Assembly: GCF_001424305.1 (NCBI RefSeq) | Contig: NZ_LMPD01000006.1 | Coordinates: 192,490 to 256,489 of the forward strand | Reading direction: 5' to 3' | From: Pedobacter sp. Leaf176 | GTDB taxonomy: Bacteria; Bacteroidota; Bacteroidia; Sphingobacteriales; Sphingobacteriaceae | DNA length: 64,000 nt | Shown here: positions 35,477 through 41,783 of the stretch, one piece after another | Position numbering within the stretch: the first letter of the stretch is position 1 | Layout: every line of letters begins with the position of its first letter | Notes under the pieces: model-generated | Told to the model about the DNA's origin: nothing | Seen by the model: the letters and a program-made list of their open reading frames with translations, nothing else | Databases searched by the model: none | Translations under genes and position numbers: made by a program

Positions 35477-35510
35477 GTTTTAACCGCAGATTTGCAGATT
35501 AAATAATGTA

Positions 35511-35549
35511 AAAAATCCAGATGCAATAAGATGCGTCTGGATTTTTTTA
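35511..35549. terminator. Terminator after the phosphomutase
   Basis: AAAAATCCAGATGCA / TGCGTCTGGATTTTTTT hairpin. Confidence 0.8.
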
Positions 35550-35746
35550 TAACCCTCAGTTGAAACTGACGGCAAGGAATAGCATCTTGTATAATCACTC
35601 TATTAGTAATTGAATGATTCTACATTAGAGATTCCATTTTTATTAGGTATTGCATTGCAGTAGATTTCAATCAACGGATATAAAACAGCTTTCTCAATTT
35701 TTCTTTTGCTGCAACAAATTTCTTTAATACTTTTGCAGCAAATACA

Positions 35747-36118
35747 ATGTTCAAAAAAATCCTGATATACCTTTTAGTGATTTGCTCGGTTTCTAACGGG
35801 GCGATGCAGCTGGTGGTTTATTCTGGATACAAAATGAATAAGGAATACATCACAAGTGTATTCTGTATAAATAAAGAACATCCTGAATTACATTGCGATG
35901 GACAATGTTTTTTAGCCAAAAAATTGAAAGATTTAGACGGCAAGAATAAACAAGTTCAGGAAAACTTAAAAAGAGTTGCAGAGGCTGAACCGAAATTTCA
36001 GTCGATTGTAATCAACCATCAAATCCCATACTTCATTATTAAATCAGAAAGCGGTTACATCGAAAAACCTCTTAAAGACCTTTCTGTTTCTATTTTTCAT
36101 CCACCGAAAGCGGTTTAA
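35747..36118 (+). CDS. Small Cys-rich protein of the copper/redox island (123 aa)
   Basis: 123 residues with an N-terminal hydrophobic segment (ILIYLLVICSVSNGAMQL), so membrane-anchored or exported, then a conserved cysteine cluster FCINKEHPELHCDGQCFL (C-x9-C-x3-C). No tested function is known to me. The cysteines and position 230 bases before the MbnP/MbnH genes suggest metal or redox handling in the periplasm. Confidence 0.75.
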   Translation: MFKKILIYLLVICSVSNGAMQLVVYSGYKMNKEYITSVFCINKEHPELHCDGQCFLAKKLKDLDGKNKQVQENLKRVAEAEPKFQSIVINHQIPYFIIKSESGYIEKPLKDLSVSIFHPPKAV

Positions 36119-36136
36119 GTAAATTTCATTTTTATT

Positions 36137-36225
36137 GTTCGTCACCCTGAATTTTCTTCAGGGTCTTGTTTGGCTATTTGGCTTAGCATGAAAGGTGCTG
36201 AAATAAATTCAGCATGATGACCGTA
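36137..36225. repeat. Intergenic repeat, GTCACCCTGAA ... TTCAGCATGATGAC
   Basis: Partial inverted repeat: GTCACCCTGAATTTTCTTCAGGGT at the left and AATTCAGCATGATGAC at the right, a common Bacteroidota intergenic element. It lies between the Cys-rich gene and mbnP. Confidence 0.65.
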
Positions 36226-36267
36226 TTAGAACCCACTCAATTTTCATTTATCCAAATTTTCAAAAAA

Positions 36268-36348
36268 ATGAAAACATCATGGCTAACTATCCTTAAAAAA
36301 ATAGGCCATGATAGCTTCATCACCGTTAAAACAAAATATAACAGATGA
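36268..36348 (+). other. 26-codon upstream ORF overlapping the mbnP start
   Basis: ATG 36268 to TGA 36348; its stop overlaps the ATG of the MbnP gene (ATGA). Both ORFs begin ATGAAAACATC (MKTS...). It could be a translated leader controlling MbnP, or a decayed copy of its 5' end. Confidence 0.35.
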
Positions 36349-37115
36349 AAACATCTCAGTACTTACTGGCATTGTTATGCCCTATTATACTCCTATCGTC
36401 ATGCAAAAAAAGCGATGATGAAATTACAGCAAATCCAAAATCAAGCTTTACAATCGAATTCGAACACCAGGTTAACGGTGCTGTTTTAGCATTAAATACA
36501 ACTACTTACAAAAATGCAAAAGGCGAAGATTTCAAAATTAATGTATTCAAATATTACGTCAGCAACATTAGATTAAGTAAAGCAGATGGAACAGCTTATT
36601 TGGTTCCTGAAAGTTATTATCTAATCGATGAATCGAAAAGCGAATCAAAGTTTATTACTATAAATAAGGTTCCTACAGGCGATTACACAAAAATTGAATA
36701 TACCATCGGTGTGGATTATGCCCTGAATTTTGCAGGTGCACAAACCGGAGCGCTTGACCCAATTAACGGCATGTTTTGGACCTGGAACAGCGGGTACATC
36801 TTTGTAAAATTAGAGGGAACATCGCCACAATCTACGGCGGCGAATAATGCCTTAACGTTTCACATCGGTGGTGTAATCGACCCGAATAATACCATCCGAA
36901 CCTTTTCTACTGAAATTAATGCTGCCAATCCATTGAGGGTAAGAACGGATGCAAAGCCAGATGTACACTTCATTGTAAACGCTGCTTCGCTTTTTACAGG
37001 CAAAACTGATATTAGCTTTTCGGCTTTAAATTTTACCATGGGCGGGGCCAACTCGGTAATTGTAGCAGATAATTATACAAAGGGGTTATTCCGCTTAGAC
37101 CATATTCATAACTAA
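36345..37115 (+). CDS. MbnP-like copper-binding lipoprotein
   Basis: 256 residues with a lipoprotein signal (lipobox LSSC at ~residues 17-20). The body has the MbnP-family pattern: an N-terminal FEHQVNG strand, YYVSNIRLSKADG, the hallmark GMFWTWNSGYIFVKLEG and C-terminal HFIVNAASLF with a final DHIHN. In methanotrophs MbnP binds Cu(I) after its partner MbnH oxidises one Trp to kynurenine; the FWTW tryptophans are the natural candidates here. The gene stands one base before the mbnH-like gene. No methanobactin genes are present. Confidence 0.88.
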   Translation: MKTSQYLLALLCPIILLSSCKKSDDEITANPKSSFTIEFEHQVNGAVLALNTTTYKNAKGEDFKINVFKYYVSNIRLSKADGTAYLVPESYYLIDESKSESKFITINKVPTGDYTKIEYTIGVDYALNFAGAQTGALDPINGMFWTWNSGYIFVKLEGTSPQSTAANNALTFHIGGVIDPNNTIRTFSTEINAANPLRVRTDAKPDVHFIVNAASLFTGKTDISFSALNFTMGGANSVIVADNYTKGLFRLDHIHN

Positions 37116-37116
37116 A

Positions 37117-38154
37117 ATGCGGAATAAAATAATTATTTATGCAATGCTTACGATAAGCATGGCAATAATGTATGCCTGTAGTAAAAATGAAAAGGCAATA
37201 GCTCCCGAAGCGACGACAATAAGTTTTGAGATTCCGGCTAATTTCCCCGTACCTACGTATAATTTCGATGACAACAAATTAACTAATGCAGGTTTTGCAC
37301 TTGGTAAAAAATTGTTTTACGATGCCCGCTTATCCGCCGACAACAGTGTTTCCTGCGGAAGCTGCCATCAGCAATTTGCCGCTTTTGCAAATCTCGACCA
37401 TAAGGTAAGTCACGGCGTAAACAATTGCCAGGGAAAGCGTAATGCACCACCCCTTTTTAATCTGGCATGGCAAAAAGCCTTCTTTTGGGATGGCGGTGTG
37501 AAGAACATTGAAACCTCACCACTAAATGCCATTACGGATGCCTGTGAAATGGGAACGGACATAGAACGTATTATAACATCATTGAAAGGCACAGCACCCT
37601 ACCCTGATTTATTTAAGCAAGCCTTTGGTTCAGATGAAATTACTTCACAAAAGATTTTGAAGTCGATTGCACAATTCACGGCAGTACTGGTTTCCGGCAA
37701 TTCAAAATACGATAAAGTAATGCGCAAAGAAAATGGCTTTAACTTTTCATCGGTTGAACTGGCGGGTTATAATTTGTTTAAGGAAAAGTGTGCGTCGTGC
37801 CATGCTGAACCTCTATTCACAGATTTTTCTTACCGTAGTAATGGCCTGGATGTGGTAAGCGCCGATGAAGGTCGCTCAACCATCACAGGTGTAAATACGG
37901 ATTTTGGAACATTCCGTGTACCAACACTCCGCAATATAGAATATACCGGTCCTTACATGCATGATGGTCGCTTTTACAGCCTGGATGAAGTTCTAGAGCA
38001 CTATAATTCTGGCGTAAAAGCCGCTGGAAATTTAGATAGCAGATTGAAAAACGGCGTTCCATTAAATGCATCCGAGAAGGAACAAATCAAAGCATTTTTA
38101 AAAACACTAACAGACAATGAATTTCTCAAAAATACACTTTACAACGAATCGTAA
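37117..38154 (+). CDS. MbnH-like diheme c-type enzyme (MauG/CcpA family)
   Basis: 345 residues, lipoprotein signal (MYAC). Two heme c sites: CGSCH (~residues 80-84) and CASCH (~225-229), with FRVPTLRN and YMHDGRFYSLDE typical of bacterial diheme peroxidase/MauG proteins. MbnH forms a bis-Fe(IV) state and modifies a Trp of MbnP, so the adjacent MbnP-like protein is the expected substrate. An ordinary cytochrome c peroxidase role is the alternative. The gene overlaps the barrel gene by 38 bases. Confidence 0.88.
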   Translation: MRNKIIIYAMLTISMAIMYACSKNEKAIAPEATTISFEIPANFPVPTYNFDDNKLTNAGFALGKKLFYDARLSADNSVSCGSCHQQFAAFANLDHKVSHGVNNCQGKRNAPPLFNLAWQKAFFWDGGVKNIETSPLNAITDACEMGTDIERIITSLKGTAPYPDLFKQAFGSDEITSQKILKSIAQFTAVLVSGNSKYDKVMRKENGFNFSSVELAGYNLFKEKCASCHAEPLFTDFSYRSNGLDVVSADEGRSTITGVNTDFGTFRVPTLRNIEYTGPYMHDGRFYSLDEVLEHYNSGVKAAGNLDSRLKNGVPLNASEKEQIKAFLKTLTDNEFLKNTLYNES

Positions 38155-39094
38155 ACTACTTACACTTCTATTCATGTTAATGAGTAGCCAGGTTTTTGCC
38201 TGCGACATTTGTGGTTGCTTTATGGGCATCACGCCATATTATAACCGAAATAGCATCAGCTTGTTATATCGATACCGTTCATTTAATGGCTACGATGGCC
38301 AATCCCATTCGCTATTTCCAAACGGTGGAAATTTCTTTATTCCGGCAAGACAGCAAAATTCACCAATAACGGGTCATGCAGGGAATGCTGAAGACTATGA
38401 GTTGTACCGATCAATGGAAATCAGGGGAAAATACTTCATTAATAGTCGGCTGAAGATTAATGCCATTCTACCGTATGTTTCAAATAGCGAGCGCTATAAT
38501 GGCTATACATCTTCTATCTCGGGCATTGGCGATATAAACCTCTACGCGGGGTATCATGTTATTCAAAAATTGGAAGATAATTTTAAGCAGCAACTTATTG
38601 CAGGAGCAGGAATAAAACTTCCAACAGGAAAAAACGACTTCAAAAATAATGTGGGTATCAGGTATTCTTCCTTAATGCAAGGCGGAACCGGCAGTACCGA
38701 TGGCTTCATCTACCTCAATTATATGGTTGGCTTAGGCAGGTTTGGAGCAAGTTTAAACACATCCTACAAAGTAAATGGAACGAATAGCCGTGATGAAGGA
38801 ATTGCCAATAGCACTACCAGTTTCCTTAACATTTTCTACACGCAAAGAATTGGGAAAGATGTACAGATAATGCCATCGGCTCAATTTTTCTATGAATATT
38901 CTGCCGGAGAAAAATATAAAGGCATTAAAACCGGTGAGCATGTCATGAACAATTTGATGGGCGGCGTTGGTGCCGATATTTTTTATAAAAATATAGCCTT
39001 GAATGCAGGAATCCAGAAAAATATCTGGGAGGGTGAAACAGACCATCCCATGAGCGCAGGAAAGATTTATGCGGGAATTACTTATAATTTTTAA
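38117..39094 (+). CDS. Outer-membrane barrel with N-terminal CDICGC motif
   Basis: 325 residues. The signal peptide ends near MSSQVFA, and the mature protein begins at once with CDICGCFMG, a Cys cluster placed to bind metal or be lipidated. The rest is alternating aromatic/polar strands ending in ITYNF, the usual C-terminal F of barrels. Together with MbnP/MbnH it suggests an outer-membrane component of copper handling. The start codon lies 38 bases inside mbnH, so translation is coupled. Confidence 0.8.
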   Translation: MNFSKIHFTTNRKLLTLLFMLMSSQVFACDICGCFMGITPYYNRNSISLLYRYRSFNGYDGQSHSLFPNGGNFFIPARQQNSPITGHAGNAEDYELYRSMEIRGKYFINSRLKINAILPYVSNSERYNGYTSSISGIGDINLYAGYHVIQKLEDNFKQQLIAGAGIKLPTGKNDFKNNVGIRYSSLMQGGTGSTDGFIYLNYMVGLGRFGASLNTSYKVNGTNSRDEGIANSTTSFLNIFYTQRIGKDVQIMPSAQFFYEYSAGEKYKGIKTGEHVMNNLMGGVGADIFYKNIALNAGIQKNIWEGETDHPMSAGKIYAGITYNF

Positions 39095-39104
39095 TCTCTT
39101 TAAT

Positions 39105-39560
39105 ATGAAAAAATTGATAACATTAGGATTTTGTTTAATCGTCGCCTTTTTTACATCTTGTAAATCGGAACCAGATTCAGCTGCAATAAAAAAAGAAGTG
39201 TTGAATATCCACGATAAATTAATGGTAGACGGTGAAAAAGTTATGAAAAATAAAATGAAGCTGGATTCAGTTTTAAAATCTGGTAAAATCAAATCTGCTG
39301 AGGATTCAATAAAAATTACCGGTTTAATTCGAAGATTAAACAAAGCGGACGAAAATATGATGGATTGGATGCATTTCTTCAAAGATGATTTCAATGGAAA
39401 AAATGAGCAGGAGGCCATAGACTACTACAAATCTGAAATGGTAAAAGTAAGAGCAGTTGAGGATGCTTATATCGAGGTTTCCAGAGCATCGGATTCAGTG
39501 TTGGAATTTTATAATGTTTCGTCGTCCGGAGAAATGAAAATGGAACATCATAAGCATTAA
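39105..39560 (+). CDS. Small lipoprotein with Met/His-rich tail (151 aa)
   Basis: I start at ATG 39105 (MKKLITLGF), giving a proper lipoprotein signal with lipobox FTSC; the tracked ATG 39069 lies inside the barrel gene. The mature part is helical and charged and ends MKMEHHKH, a plausible Cu-binding tail. Family unknown. Location in the copper island supports a metal role, but this is inference. Confidence 0.72.
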   Translation: MKKLITLGFCLIVAFFTSCKSEPDSAAIKKEVLNIHDKLMVDGEKVMKNKMKLDSVLKSGKIKSAEDSIKITGLIRRLNKADENMMDWMHFFKDDFNGKNEQEAIDYYKSEMVKVRAVEDAYIEVSRASDSVLEFYNVSSSGEMKMEHHKH

Positions 39561-39562
39561 TT

Positions 39563-39637
39563 GTTCTCCCGCTGATTTCACAGATTTACGCTGAACCTTT
39601 TTAATTTTGGCCTTTATCACATTAAATCAGCGGGAAA
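39563..39637. repeat. Inverted repeat CCCGCTGATTT / AAATCAGCGGG
   Basis: Eleven-base arms 45 bases apart between the lipoprotein and SCO genes. This is the CGCTGATTT/CGCAGATTT intergenic repeat family; a fragment also follows the phosphomutase gene. Confidence 0.75.
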
Positions 39638-39716
39638 CTATTTGTACAAATAACAGAACCACAATTATTACCTACTGCAGCGCATAGGTTGTATATTTAC
39701 ATTTTAATAAAATATC

Positions 39717-40367
39717 ATGAATAAAATTATTTCTTCAGTGGCAATTTGCTTGCTATCTATTACAATACTTTCTTCTTGTCAGCAAGATAAGAAACTACCT
39801 TTCTATGGCGAACGCCATGCAGAAACCGTTAAAGATGCAGCTGGTGTAGAGAAGATAGACACGGTTTACCAAACCATTCCAAACTGGTCTTTCTTAAACC
39901 AGGATAGTGTGGTTACGACCAATAAAGCTACCGATGGAAAAGTGTATGTAGCTGATTTCTTCTTTACGTCATGTACCACGATTTGCCCGACCATGCACCG
40001 TAATCTGATGACTGTTTATAAAGAATTTAACACCAATCCTGATGTAATGTTTGTTTCACATACTATAGATTTTAAATACGACAGACCTTACGTTTTAAAA
40101 AAATACGCTCAGAAACTGGGTGTTGATGGTTCAAAGTGGCTATTTCTTTATGGTAGTAAAGACAGCGTTTATACATTAGCCGAGAAAAATTATCTCGTAG
40201 CAGTTGGCGAAGACAGCACTGCAAAAGATGGTTATATCCACCAGGGCTATTTGGTTTTAATCGATAAAGACAGGAGAATCCGTGGCGCTTACGATGGAAC
40301 CAAAGAAGATCAGGTAGAACAATTGAGAAAAGACATCCCGGTTTTATTGGCTGAGTATAAAAAATAG
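39717..40367 (+). CDS. SCO1/SenC-family copper chaperone
   Basis: 216 residues, lipoprotein signal (lipobox LSSC). Thioredoxin-like fold with the copper site Cys-x3-Cys (FTSCTTICPTMH) and the distal His in GYIHQGYLVLID. SCO proteins deliver Cu to the CuA site of cytochrome oxidase or keep its cysteines reduced. Here the gene is next to MbnP/MbnH and a cytochrome c, which supports a shared copper/redox job. Confidence 0.93.
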   Translation: MNKIISSVAICLLSITILSSCQQDKKLPFYGERHAETVKDAAGVEKIDTVYQTIPNWSFLNQDSVVTTNKATDGKVYVADFFFTSCTTICPTMHRNLMTVYKEFNTNPDVMFVSHTIDFKYDRPYVLKKYAQKLGVDGSKWLFLYGSKDSVYTLAEKNYLVAVGEDSTAKDGYIHQGYLVLIDKDRRIRGAYDGTKEDQVEQLRKDIPVLLAEYKK

Positions 40368-40377
40368 AAACAATAGT

Positions 40378-40470
40378 TTAAGTCGTCATTTCGACCGAAG
40401 TGGAGAAATCTTTAAAGCTAATTTAAAAGATTTCTCGGCTGCATTTCATTCGGCTCGAAATGACGACTAA
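40378..40470. repeat. Palindromic intergenic repeat, AGTCGTCATTTCGA family
   Basis: AGTCGTCATTTCGACCGAAG and its complement CTCGAAATGACGACT flank GGAGAAATCTT/AAGATTTCTC. The half copy near 21840 belongs to the same family. Confidence 0.85.
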
Positions 40471-40487
40471 TCAATAAAAAAACATCC

Positions 40488-40910
40488 ATGCGCAAATACG
40501 TCATCAATTCTTCCCTTCTGCTTTCTGTTATCGCAGTAATAATCTCTTGTCAAAACCAGGAAACCATTGATTTGCATAACTATATGTCTAATGGTAAGGA
40601 TATTTATAAAGCTAAATGTCAAAATTGCCATGGCGAAAATGGCGAGGGTTTAGGGCAGCTGGCGCCTCCCCTAACCGATTCCGTTTTTTTAAAAACCAAT
40701 AGAGACCGTTTGGCTTGCATCATTAAAAATGGCGCAAATGAGTCATTTATTATTAATGGAAAAGAATACAAGGAAAAAATGCCGGCTTTCCCCGAATTAG
40801 CAGATATTGATGTAGCACAGGTAATGGTTTACATTACTAATTCATTCGGGAACAAACAAGGTTTTGTCCCTTACGCTCAGGTTTCGAAAAATCTGCAAAA
40901 TTGTAAATAA
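40488..40910 (+). CDS. Lipid-anchored cytochrome c (140 aa)
   Basis: Lipoprotein signal (VIISC), then one heme site CQNCH in KAKCQNCHGENGEGLGQLAPPL and an axial Met candidate in KEKMPAFPEL. Single-heme class I cytochrome. It could donate electrons to MbnH or a copper oxidase, or take electrons from them. It is the last gene of the copper island. Confidence 0.9.
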   Translation: MRKYVINSSLLLSVIAVIISCQNQETIDLHNYMSNGKDIYKAKCQNCHGENGEGLGQLAPPLTDSVFLKTNRDRLACIIKNGANESFIINGKEYKEKMPAFPELADIDVAQVMVYITNSFGNKQGFVPYAQVSKNLQNCK

Positions 40911-40951
40911 ATAAATCTTGTATTCTTTGTGTCTTTGTGGTCAAAAAAAAC

Positions 40952-40959
40952 CATCTTTG
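40952..40959 (+). promoter_or_regulatory. Likely -7 element of rnpB
   Basis: CATCTTTG differs from TAnnTTTG at one base. The RNA 5' end predicted from its folding (40966) is seven bases further, the spacing used for the other promoters in this window. TTTG copies upstream could be the -33 element. Confidence 0.45.
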
Positions 40960-40965
40960 CGCAAA

Positions 40966-41340
40966 ATGCAGGTTGTTCTATCGCTGTTTCGATTAATCGG
41001 AAGAGAGGAAAGTCCGGGCAACGCAGGGCATCCCGCTTTCTAACGGAAAGGAATTTAGGAATGAAAACCTGAATTACGGATTAGTGCAACAGAAAATATA
41101 CCGTCCCGATATAAAGTCGGGATAAGGGTGAAAACGTGCGGTAAGAGCGCACGAGCATTGCAGGCGACTGCAATGGTTTGTAAACCCCGGGAGTTGAAAG
41201 ACCAAATAGGCTAACGCATGTAGGGCTGCCCGTCCGATGTTAGTGGGTAGGTCGTTAGAGATAAACGGCAACGTTTATAGTGGATTAATGATAGAAATCC
41301 TGAGTAATCAGGAAACAGAACCCGGCTTACAGACCTGCAT
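40966..41340 (+). ncRNA. rnpB: RNase P RNA
   Basis: Recognised by the conserved P4-forming blocks GAGAGGAAAGTCCGGGC near the 5' end and ACAGAACCCGGCTTAC near the 3' end, and by the terminal helix ATGCAGGT/ACCTGCAT that sets both ends. A type A-like RNA of about 375 bases; the catalytic RNA that removes 5' leaders of tRNAs. ORFs drawn across it by the track are not genes. Confidence 0.95.
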
Positions 41341-41783
41341 TTTTATTTTTTTCAAAAACTATAACAGTTTCTTTTCTGTTAGTTCATTTCTGCTTTTCAC
41401 TACAATCTTTTTGTGTTTGTTTTTATACGTTCTGCTCATCAATGCGATGAGGAAAGACGTGGCAATCTTTTTAAAATAAACAAACACCTGTATAATAAAG
41501 GTTAGAATAAACACAGCGCTTAGTTATATTTAATCCTCTTTATAATGCTTTTGCCACGGAAACACAGAAGGCACAGAAAGGATTTAGCTCTTGATTGACG
41601 CAGGTTTGTCGCGTAAATAAATGCAATCATCGAATAATCCGATAGAAATTATTCCTCGTTTCCAAGTAAAAAAAATAAAACCTTTTTTGCTATTTACCGT
41701 TATAGCCTAAATTCATTGTATAATAAACTATACATTAATTTAAAAATAATATATTCGCATTTCAATTGACTAACAATTACCAA
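41341..41783. other. Gap between rnpB and the sigma54-type regulator
   Basis: About 440 bases. It holds a weak A/T-rich hairpin that may end rnpB, a half copy of the CATTGCGAGG repeat (41437-41473), and a CACGGAAACACAGAAGGCACAG repeat unit near 41557. A hydrophobic ORF drawn here (41237-41479) starts inside rnpB and is not supported. Confidence 0.5.

Follow-up and report, generated by a model that had tools for sequence, protein, structure and literature searches.

A conserved MbnP/MbnH/barrel gene cassette of Pedobacter and other Bacteroidota, probably for copper acquisition and headed by a putative copper-sensing leader peptide

Described copper systems and the Pedobacter locus

Pairs of MbnP and MbnH, proteins with solved structures from M. 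trichosporium OB3b (7l6g, 6e1c), were reported well outside methanobactin producers in 2013 (PMC3621798), and MbnPH-like genes were reported in 2022 in operons headed by CruR, outside Bacteroidota (PMC9426467). CruR is the first gene of its operon, followed by a long intergenic gap, and it has a conserved Cys motif and an arrest motif three residues before its end, with a spacing that holds within one or two residues; members of the family precede TIGR01778 TonB-copper receptors, SCO, PCuAC and MbnPH-like genes (PMC9426467). Here we describe a run of seven genes (positions 35747-40910) that contains an MbnP/MbnH pair, in a 64,000-nucleotide stretch of contig NZ_LMPD01000006.1 of Pedobacter sp. 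Leaf176 (the whole stretch is called the window). Its first gene, a small Cys protein that we call gene A, its MbnP and MbnH, and an outer-membrane beta-barrel with the N-terminal motif CDICGC form a cassette. Based on gene content and motifs, we consider it fairly probable that the operon serves copper acquisition, with the copper probably caught outside the cell, and is controlled by a leader peptide that senses copper; a copper-chaperone/cytochrome unit lies next to it.

The pair resembles MbnP and MbnH of OB3b in fold, in the WxW motif with a Met two residues before the first Trp, in a conserved His, and in the adjacent MauG-like di-heme enzyme; it differs in low similarity (profile E value 0.002), in scores below the equivalog cut-offs, in the lack of MbnB in the genome, and in the additional barrel and Cys leader. 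MopE/SACCP and CorA/CorB of methanotrophs, which are surface-associated and copper-repressed (PMC3912023), also place a kynurenine copper site next to a di-heme protein, although their sequence is reported to be not markedly similar to MbnP (PMC3621798). Gene A resembles CruR of Bordetella pertussis (DUF2946) in being first in the operon, with an export signal, a Cys motif, and a C-terminal PP at a fixed spacing. However, its Cys motif is C-x9-CxGxC and not CXXC, its end is FxPP and not RAPP, its spacing is about 66 and not 45, the DUF2946 profile does not match it, and its host group is Bacteroidota. CutF of Rhodobacter capsulatus is likewise a nascent exported Cys protein with a proline-rich end, but it activates a copper oxidase at high copper via a stem-loop over the start site. 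Channels of the FapF/COG4313 type (PF13557) share the predicted barrel fold, whereas the Cys-rich CDICGC mature N-terminus and the copper-gene context distinguish the barrel studied here.

An earlier note, made from the sequence alone, had listed seven genes in order on one strand, and all these open reading frames are in place on the + strand. It counted gene A and otherwise passed it over, although gene A is probably a copper-sensing regulatory leader. The host genome belongs to Sphingobacteriaceae, and its barrel locus is closest to those of named Pedobacter species, with up to 92% identity. The full seven-gene order is found in 30 of 34 close Pedobacter loci, the other 4 being contig-end cuts or minor variants, and the order A-MbnP-MbnH-barrel is kept in Pedobacter, other Sphingobacteriaceae, Chitinophaga, Cytophagales and others, down to about 25-40% identity. 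Because the order persists in these 30 Pedobacter loci and the first four genes recur in other families, the arrangement is not due to chance. The four-gene cassette is frequently flanked by unrelated housekeeping genes. The co-occurrence of all seven genes, which the earlier note had proposed to check, thus holds in close Pedobacter loci; beyond these, two separable units are seen. Its suggestion of an undescribed combination has to be narrowed in the same way: MbnPH pairs outside methanobactin operons (PMC3621798) and with copper genes (PMC9426467) are known, so that such a pair is not new in itself, whereas the phylum-wide cassette with the CDICGC barrel appears to be new relative to the literature examined.

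Gene A and the modules it heads

Gene A (35747-36118, + strand) encodes 123 residues and is a predicted copper-sensing arrest-peptide leader (upstream open reading frame, uORF); the host genome has one such gene. The motif Cys40-x9-Cys50-x-Gly-x-Cys54 (C-x9-CxGxC, 35864-35908) follows an export segment, and the C-terminus contains F117-H-P-P120 (36095-36106), three more residues and the stop. C40, C50, G52 and C54 are invariant in 16 homologues, and an N-terminal hydrophobic segment is present in 95/95 family members. A PP within 8 residues of the C-terminus, mostly as [IV]F[HRQ]PP, was found in 106 of 108 relatives, compared to PP in the last ten residues of 5/230 small exported open reading frames used as a control, and the spacing from Cys to PP is 62-71 residues (standard deviation 2.14, n=94); for both counts, it should be noted that some loci were recovered with a profile that included the C-terminus. 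Conservation, expressed as the mean top-residue fraction, is 0.75 in the Cys motif and 0.70 in the PP motif, versus 0.18, near random, in the linker. Small size, export, position as the first gene, a Cys motif, PP and fixed spacing together make up the architecture of CruR/CutF-like leaders. Gene A has no Pfam match, including DUF2946 at E values up to 1, and a phylum search with PF11162 (DUF2946) to E 0.1 did not list A loci; assignment to DUF2946 was rejected for want of a profile match. Gene A may be among the entries of a published list of CutF-like proteins, unremarked; this list includes many Bacteroidota entries, and the text of the paper does not mention MbnP or MauG (PMC9973294).

A match to the Bacteroidota promoter consensus, TTTG-N19-TACTTTTG (35705..35735, + strand), lies just upstream of gene A. 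It is the sole match in 35500-41000, the + strand of the window having 3 in all, and most Pedobacter loci preserve it ahead of A even though the flanking sequence has diverged. In the family, a median of 127 nucleotides separates A from the following gene; here the gap is 226 nucleotides long (36119..36344, + strand). This intergenic leader is a candidate regulatory region with stable predicted hairpins (RNA fold z = -3.64 for 36050-36360); since it holds variable repeat-like palindromes, conservation of the predicted structure is at most putative.

The Cys-rich motif, the export segment and the tight linkage to copper genes would also fit a small membrane-anchored copper chaperone, the finished protein taking copper from the outer-membrane module and delivering it to SCO. 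This is unlikely, given that the linker varies almost at random in sequence but hardly in length, with conservation confined to the Cys motif and PP, and that PP stands 1-8 residues before the stop in a gene placed ahead of import genes; a chaperone needs none of these features.

The genes that follow A were also compared where MbnP is missing. Among 20 sampled MbnP-less loci, a TonB receptor stands beside A in 17, with a weak match in one more. The receptors are of two kinds; for those of one kind the best family is TIGR01778 (TonB-copper), with up to 256 bits, below the cut-off of 472. TonB-copper matches in the host genome reach 58 bits at most. A barrel-SCO-PCuAC operon with A as its first gene, beside a DUF411 protein, is found in another family, and in one MbnP-less relative the genes A-TonB receptor-BNR protein replace the cassette ahead of SCO-cytochrome c. 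A BNR-repeat protein follows the A-linked TonB receptor at L083:8223-9521, L104, L113 and L118; that of L083 has a CxCC motif and is possibly copper-related. We give an even chance to the joint reading that A is a Bacteroidota-wide translation-arrest copper sensor distinct from DUF2946 (C-x9-CxGxC, FxPP) and the one switch shared by outer-membrane copper-import modules that can replace each other, namely: (i) TonB-copper receptors; (ii) the MbnP/MbnH/CDICGC-barrel cassette; and (iii) barrel-SCO-PCuAC. Relative to the literature examined, the A family, with its FxPP and constant spacing, also appears to be new as a leader that alternative copper-import modules share.

These partners also bear on a quite different possibility, that the cassette serves periplasmic copper detoxification or sequestration, with A acting like CutF, so that copper would promote stalling and turn the operon on. 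Genes for copper efflux often follow those of CutF-like proteins (PMC9973294), and binding by MbnP could sequester Cu(I). On the other hand, A's other partners (TonB receptors, SCO, PCuAC) point to acquisition or oxidase loading, and none of the A loci examined along their length showed an efflux operon; we regard detoxification as improbable, somewhat more so than the chaperone.

The MbnP/MbnH/barrel cassette and the SCO unit

The copper-acquisition reading rests further on the MbnP-family lipoprotein (36345-37115, + strand), which matches PF20243 with 195 bits (gathering cut-off 27). When its predicted structure, with a predicted local distance difference test score (pLDDT) of 86, was compared to solved structures, six chains of 7l6g were the only matches at E<0.001 (E 1.7e-10, template modelling score, TM, 0.53). 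A profile search reached 7l6g at E 0.002 only, across the GMxWxW stretch, and a single-sequence search against solved structures found no match. M143, W145 and W147 of the GMFWTW motif (36771-36785), and also H173, align with GMAWNW and HVG of 7l6g, in which the ligands are a His, a Met and the kynurenine formed from the first Trp; M143 and H173 are thus candidate ligands. Both W145 and W147 are present in 98/98 non-redundant homologues, M143 in 91% and H173 in 92% of them. Tandem MbnP-MbnH pairs next to one barrel were seen at L046, L048, L184, L186 and L193; the extra MbnP of L046 and L048 has WMW, without the Met two residues before the motif. Acidic residues following the lipobox of MbnP and MbnH are frequent, and were not accepted as a decisive surface-export signal.

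The gene for the MbnH-like di-heme lipoprotein of the MauG family (37117-38154, + strand) starts one base after the end of mbnP. The protein matches PF03150 (177 bits) and the MbnH structure 6e1c; its best NCBIfam family is TIGR04039 (MbnH). Its two CxxCH motifs (C80-H84 and C225-H229, at 37354-37368 and 37789-37803) are present in 102/102 homologues, and Y296 (38002-38004), found in 100 of the 102, aligns with the Tyr of 6e1c, whereas the peroxidase 1iqc has Met near that place; two CxxCH motifs with Tyr replacing the peroxidase Met place the protein in the MauG/MbnH group. An ordinary peroxide-removing peroxidase with MbnP as its redox partner and copper incidental, for which the best solved sequence match (the di-heme peroxidase 1iqc) and the score below the MbnH equivalog cut-off would speak, is very unlikely in view of Tyr296 in 98% of homologues and the strict association with a WxW protein, which holds for unlinked genes as well.

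This pairing was quantified in a phylum-wide sample of 218 Bacteroidota genomes, 55 with MbnP and 163 without. MbnH is next downstream in 70 of 73 MbnP loci, and a strong MbnH is present in 54/55 MbnP genomes versus 16/163 others; these counts include related, non-independent genomes, and a P value was given no weight. Four genomes (L170, L171, L172, L176) have the MbnH-less cassette A-MbnP-barrel; all have a strong MbnH elsewhere and keep WxW, and loss of the tryptophan chemistry was rejected as an explanation because MbnH is still encoded. The strict co-occurrence, together with unlinked MbnH where WxW is kept, makes a good case that MbnP requires MbnH, if necessary supplied in trans. At L031 and L032 (one genus), MbnH lacks the usual tryptophans (FFLDGG and NLTF, versus FFWDGG and NLAW elsewhere).

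The barrel gene (38117-39094, + strand) overlaps mbnH by 38 nucleotides and matches PF13557. The mature N-terminus of the protein is CDICGC (38201-38218), in which C29, C32 and G33 are invariant among homologues. Its model matches FapF (5o65/5o67) and a COG4313 channel (4rl8) at E values from 1e-9 to 1e-7, which predicts an outer-membrane channel of this type. Among the 28 barrels with a score of 70 bits or more in the phylum sample, 24 adjoin MbnP, and both A and the barrel are found at 23 MbnP loci. At L163 and L167 the order is A-barrel-SCO-cytochrome c, with no MbnP/MbnH between, so that A and the CDICGC barrel make up a separate module. At L094:9640-10092, a small His/Met-rich protein with no Pfam match stands right after MbnH, in the place of the barrel.

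The second unit begins downstream. A small lipoprotein ending in MKMEHHKH (about 39105-39560, + strand), accessory in Pedobacter and relatives, has no Pfam or NCBIfam match. It is followed by a copper chaperone of the SCO1/SenC type with CTTIC (39717-40367, + strand; PF02630, 76.6 bits) and by its partner, a single-heme cytochrome c lipoprotein (40488-40910, + strand; PF13442). RNase P RNA (class A, 40965-41345) lies directly downstream of the cytochrome c gene. In relatives without MbnP, this locus retains SCO and cytochrome c on the rnpB side, in most cases where NtrC lies, and frequently the lipoprotein as well: a close cytochrome c homologue is present in 15/15 such relatives and stands next to SCO in all seven such loci examined, and lipoprotein homologues adjoin SCO in MbnP-less genomes as well. 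Conversely, the four-gene cassette is found alone, without this unit, in many genomes. A single seven-gene pathway was rejected on both grounds; judged by gene order, the island is two units, A-MbnP-MbnH-barrel and SCO-cytochrome c (often with the lipoprotein). The conserved element TTGTATATTTACA precedes SCO in Pedobacter and suggests a promoter of its own, and SCO-cytochrome c is probably its own transcription unit. In Sphingobacteriaceae, the arrangement of SCO-cytochrome c followed by NtrC is stable.

With respect to the earlier note, its MbnP/MbnH pair is upheld, with both WxW tryptophans conserved, and the linkage of the CDICGC barrel to the pair and the copper-related neighbours are borne out as well, whereas the single seven-gene copper pathway is not. 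The MKMEHHKH tail, which it had taken for an extra copper part, is not conserved across lipoprotein homologues, which makes it weak evidence of copper binding, and was rejected as a copper site. It had also seen no methanobactin genes; the host genome has no match to the MbnB synthase (PF05114), MbnC and the precursor peptide being outside this search, and a methanobactin link was rejected because MbnB is missing. A plasmid-borne copper-resistance context was rejected because only two Deinococcus plasmids gave MbnP plasmid matches.

Proposed mechanism and its significance

If the locus is a leader-controlled copper-acquisition operon, transcription would start just upstream of gene A, and in the nascent exported A the Cys motif would bind copper while the C-terminal FxPP would stall the ribosome. 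At low copper the ribosome would be stalled and the operon on; copper on the Cys motif would release the stall, and expression would go down. This CruR-type logic was chosen because the partners of A are of the acquisition type. MbnH would oxidise the first WxW Trp of MbnP, probably to kynurenine, completing a Cu(I) site. MbnP would then hold Cu(I), the Cys-rich outer-membrane channel would pass copper or hand it over, and periplasmic copper would reach SCO and, through it, the respiratory oxidase.

Several points weigh against this reading. FxPP differs from RAPP and RGPP, whose arrest has been measured, and RAPP/RGPP uORFs ahead of copper genes are reported as absent in Bacteroidota (PMC12992588). 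The Cys-to-stop spacing of gene A is almost as constant as that from Cys to PP (standard deviation 2.58 versus 2.14), and the control exerted by A could follow the reverse logic, that of CutF. MbnP scores 62 bits with TIGR04052 (equivalog cut-off 140) and the di-heme protein 205 bits with TIGR04039 (cut-off 363); the family assignment expected by the earlier note thus holds at the level of PF20243 and PF03150 and fails at these cut-offs, and by sequence the two proteins are diverged relatives, not textbook equivalogs, because both score below them. The barrel model is of medium confidence (pLDDT 71), and its predicted fold is not copper-specific. The sequences show the gene content, the conserved order, the motifs and regulatory architecture, the fixed spacing and the retention of MbnH where it is unlinked; copper binding, kynurenine formation, ribosome arrest, the direction of regulation and the role of the barrel are inferred.

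Little is understood of how bacteria bring copper through the outer membrane, and knowledge of the process in Bacteroidota is especially scant. If the proposed reading is true, the phylum would have a conserved copper-capture cassette of the kynurenine type with its own outer-membrane channel, and gene A alone would mark the loci for copper import throughout the phylum. Readily cultured laboratory strains, such as Pedobacter, would then allow a direct test of whether nascent-chain arrest controls the response to copper.

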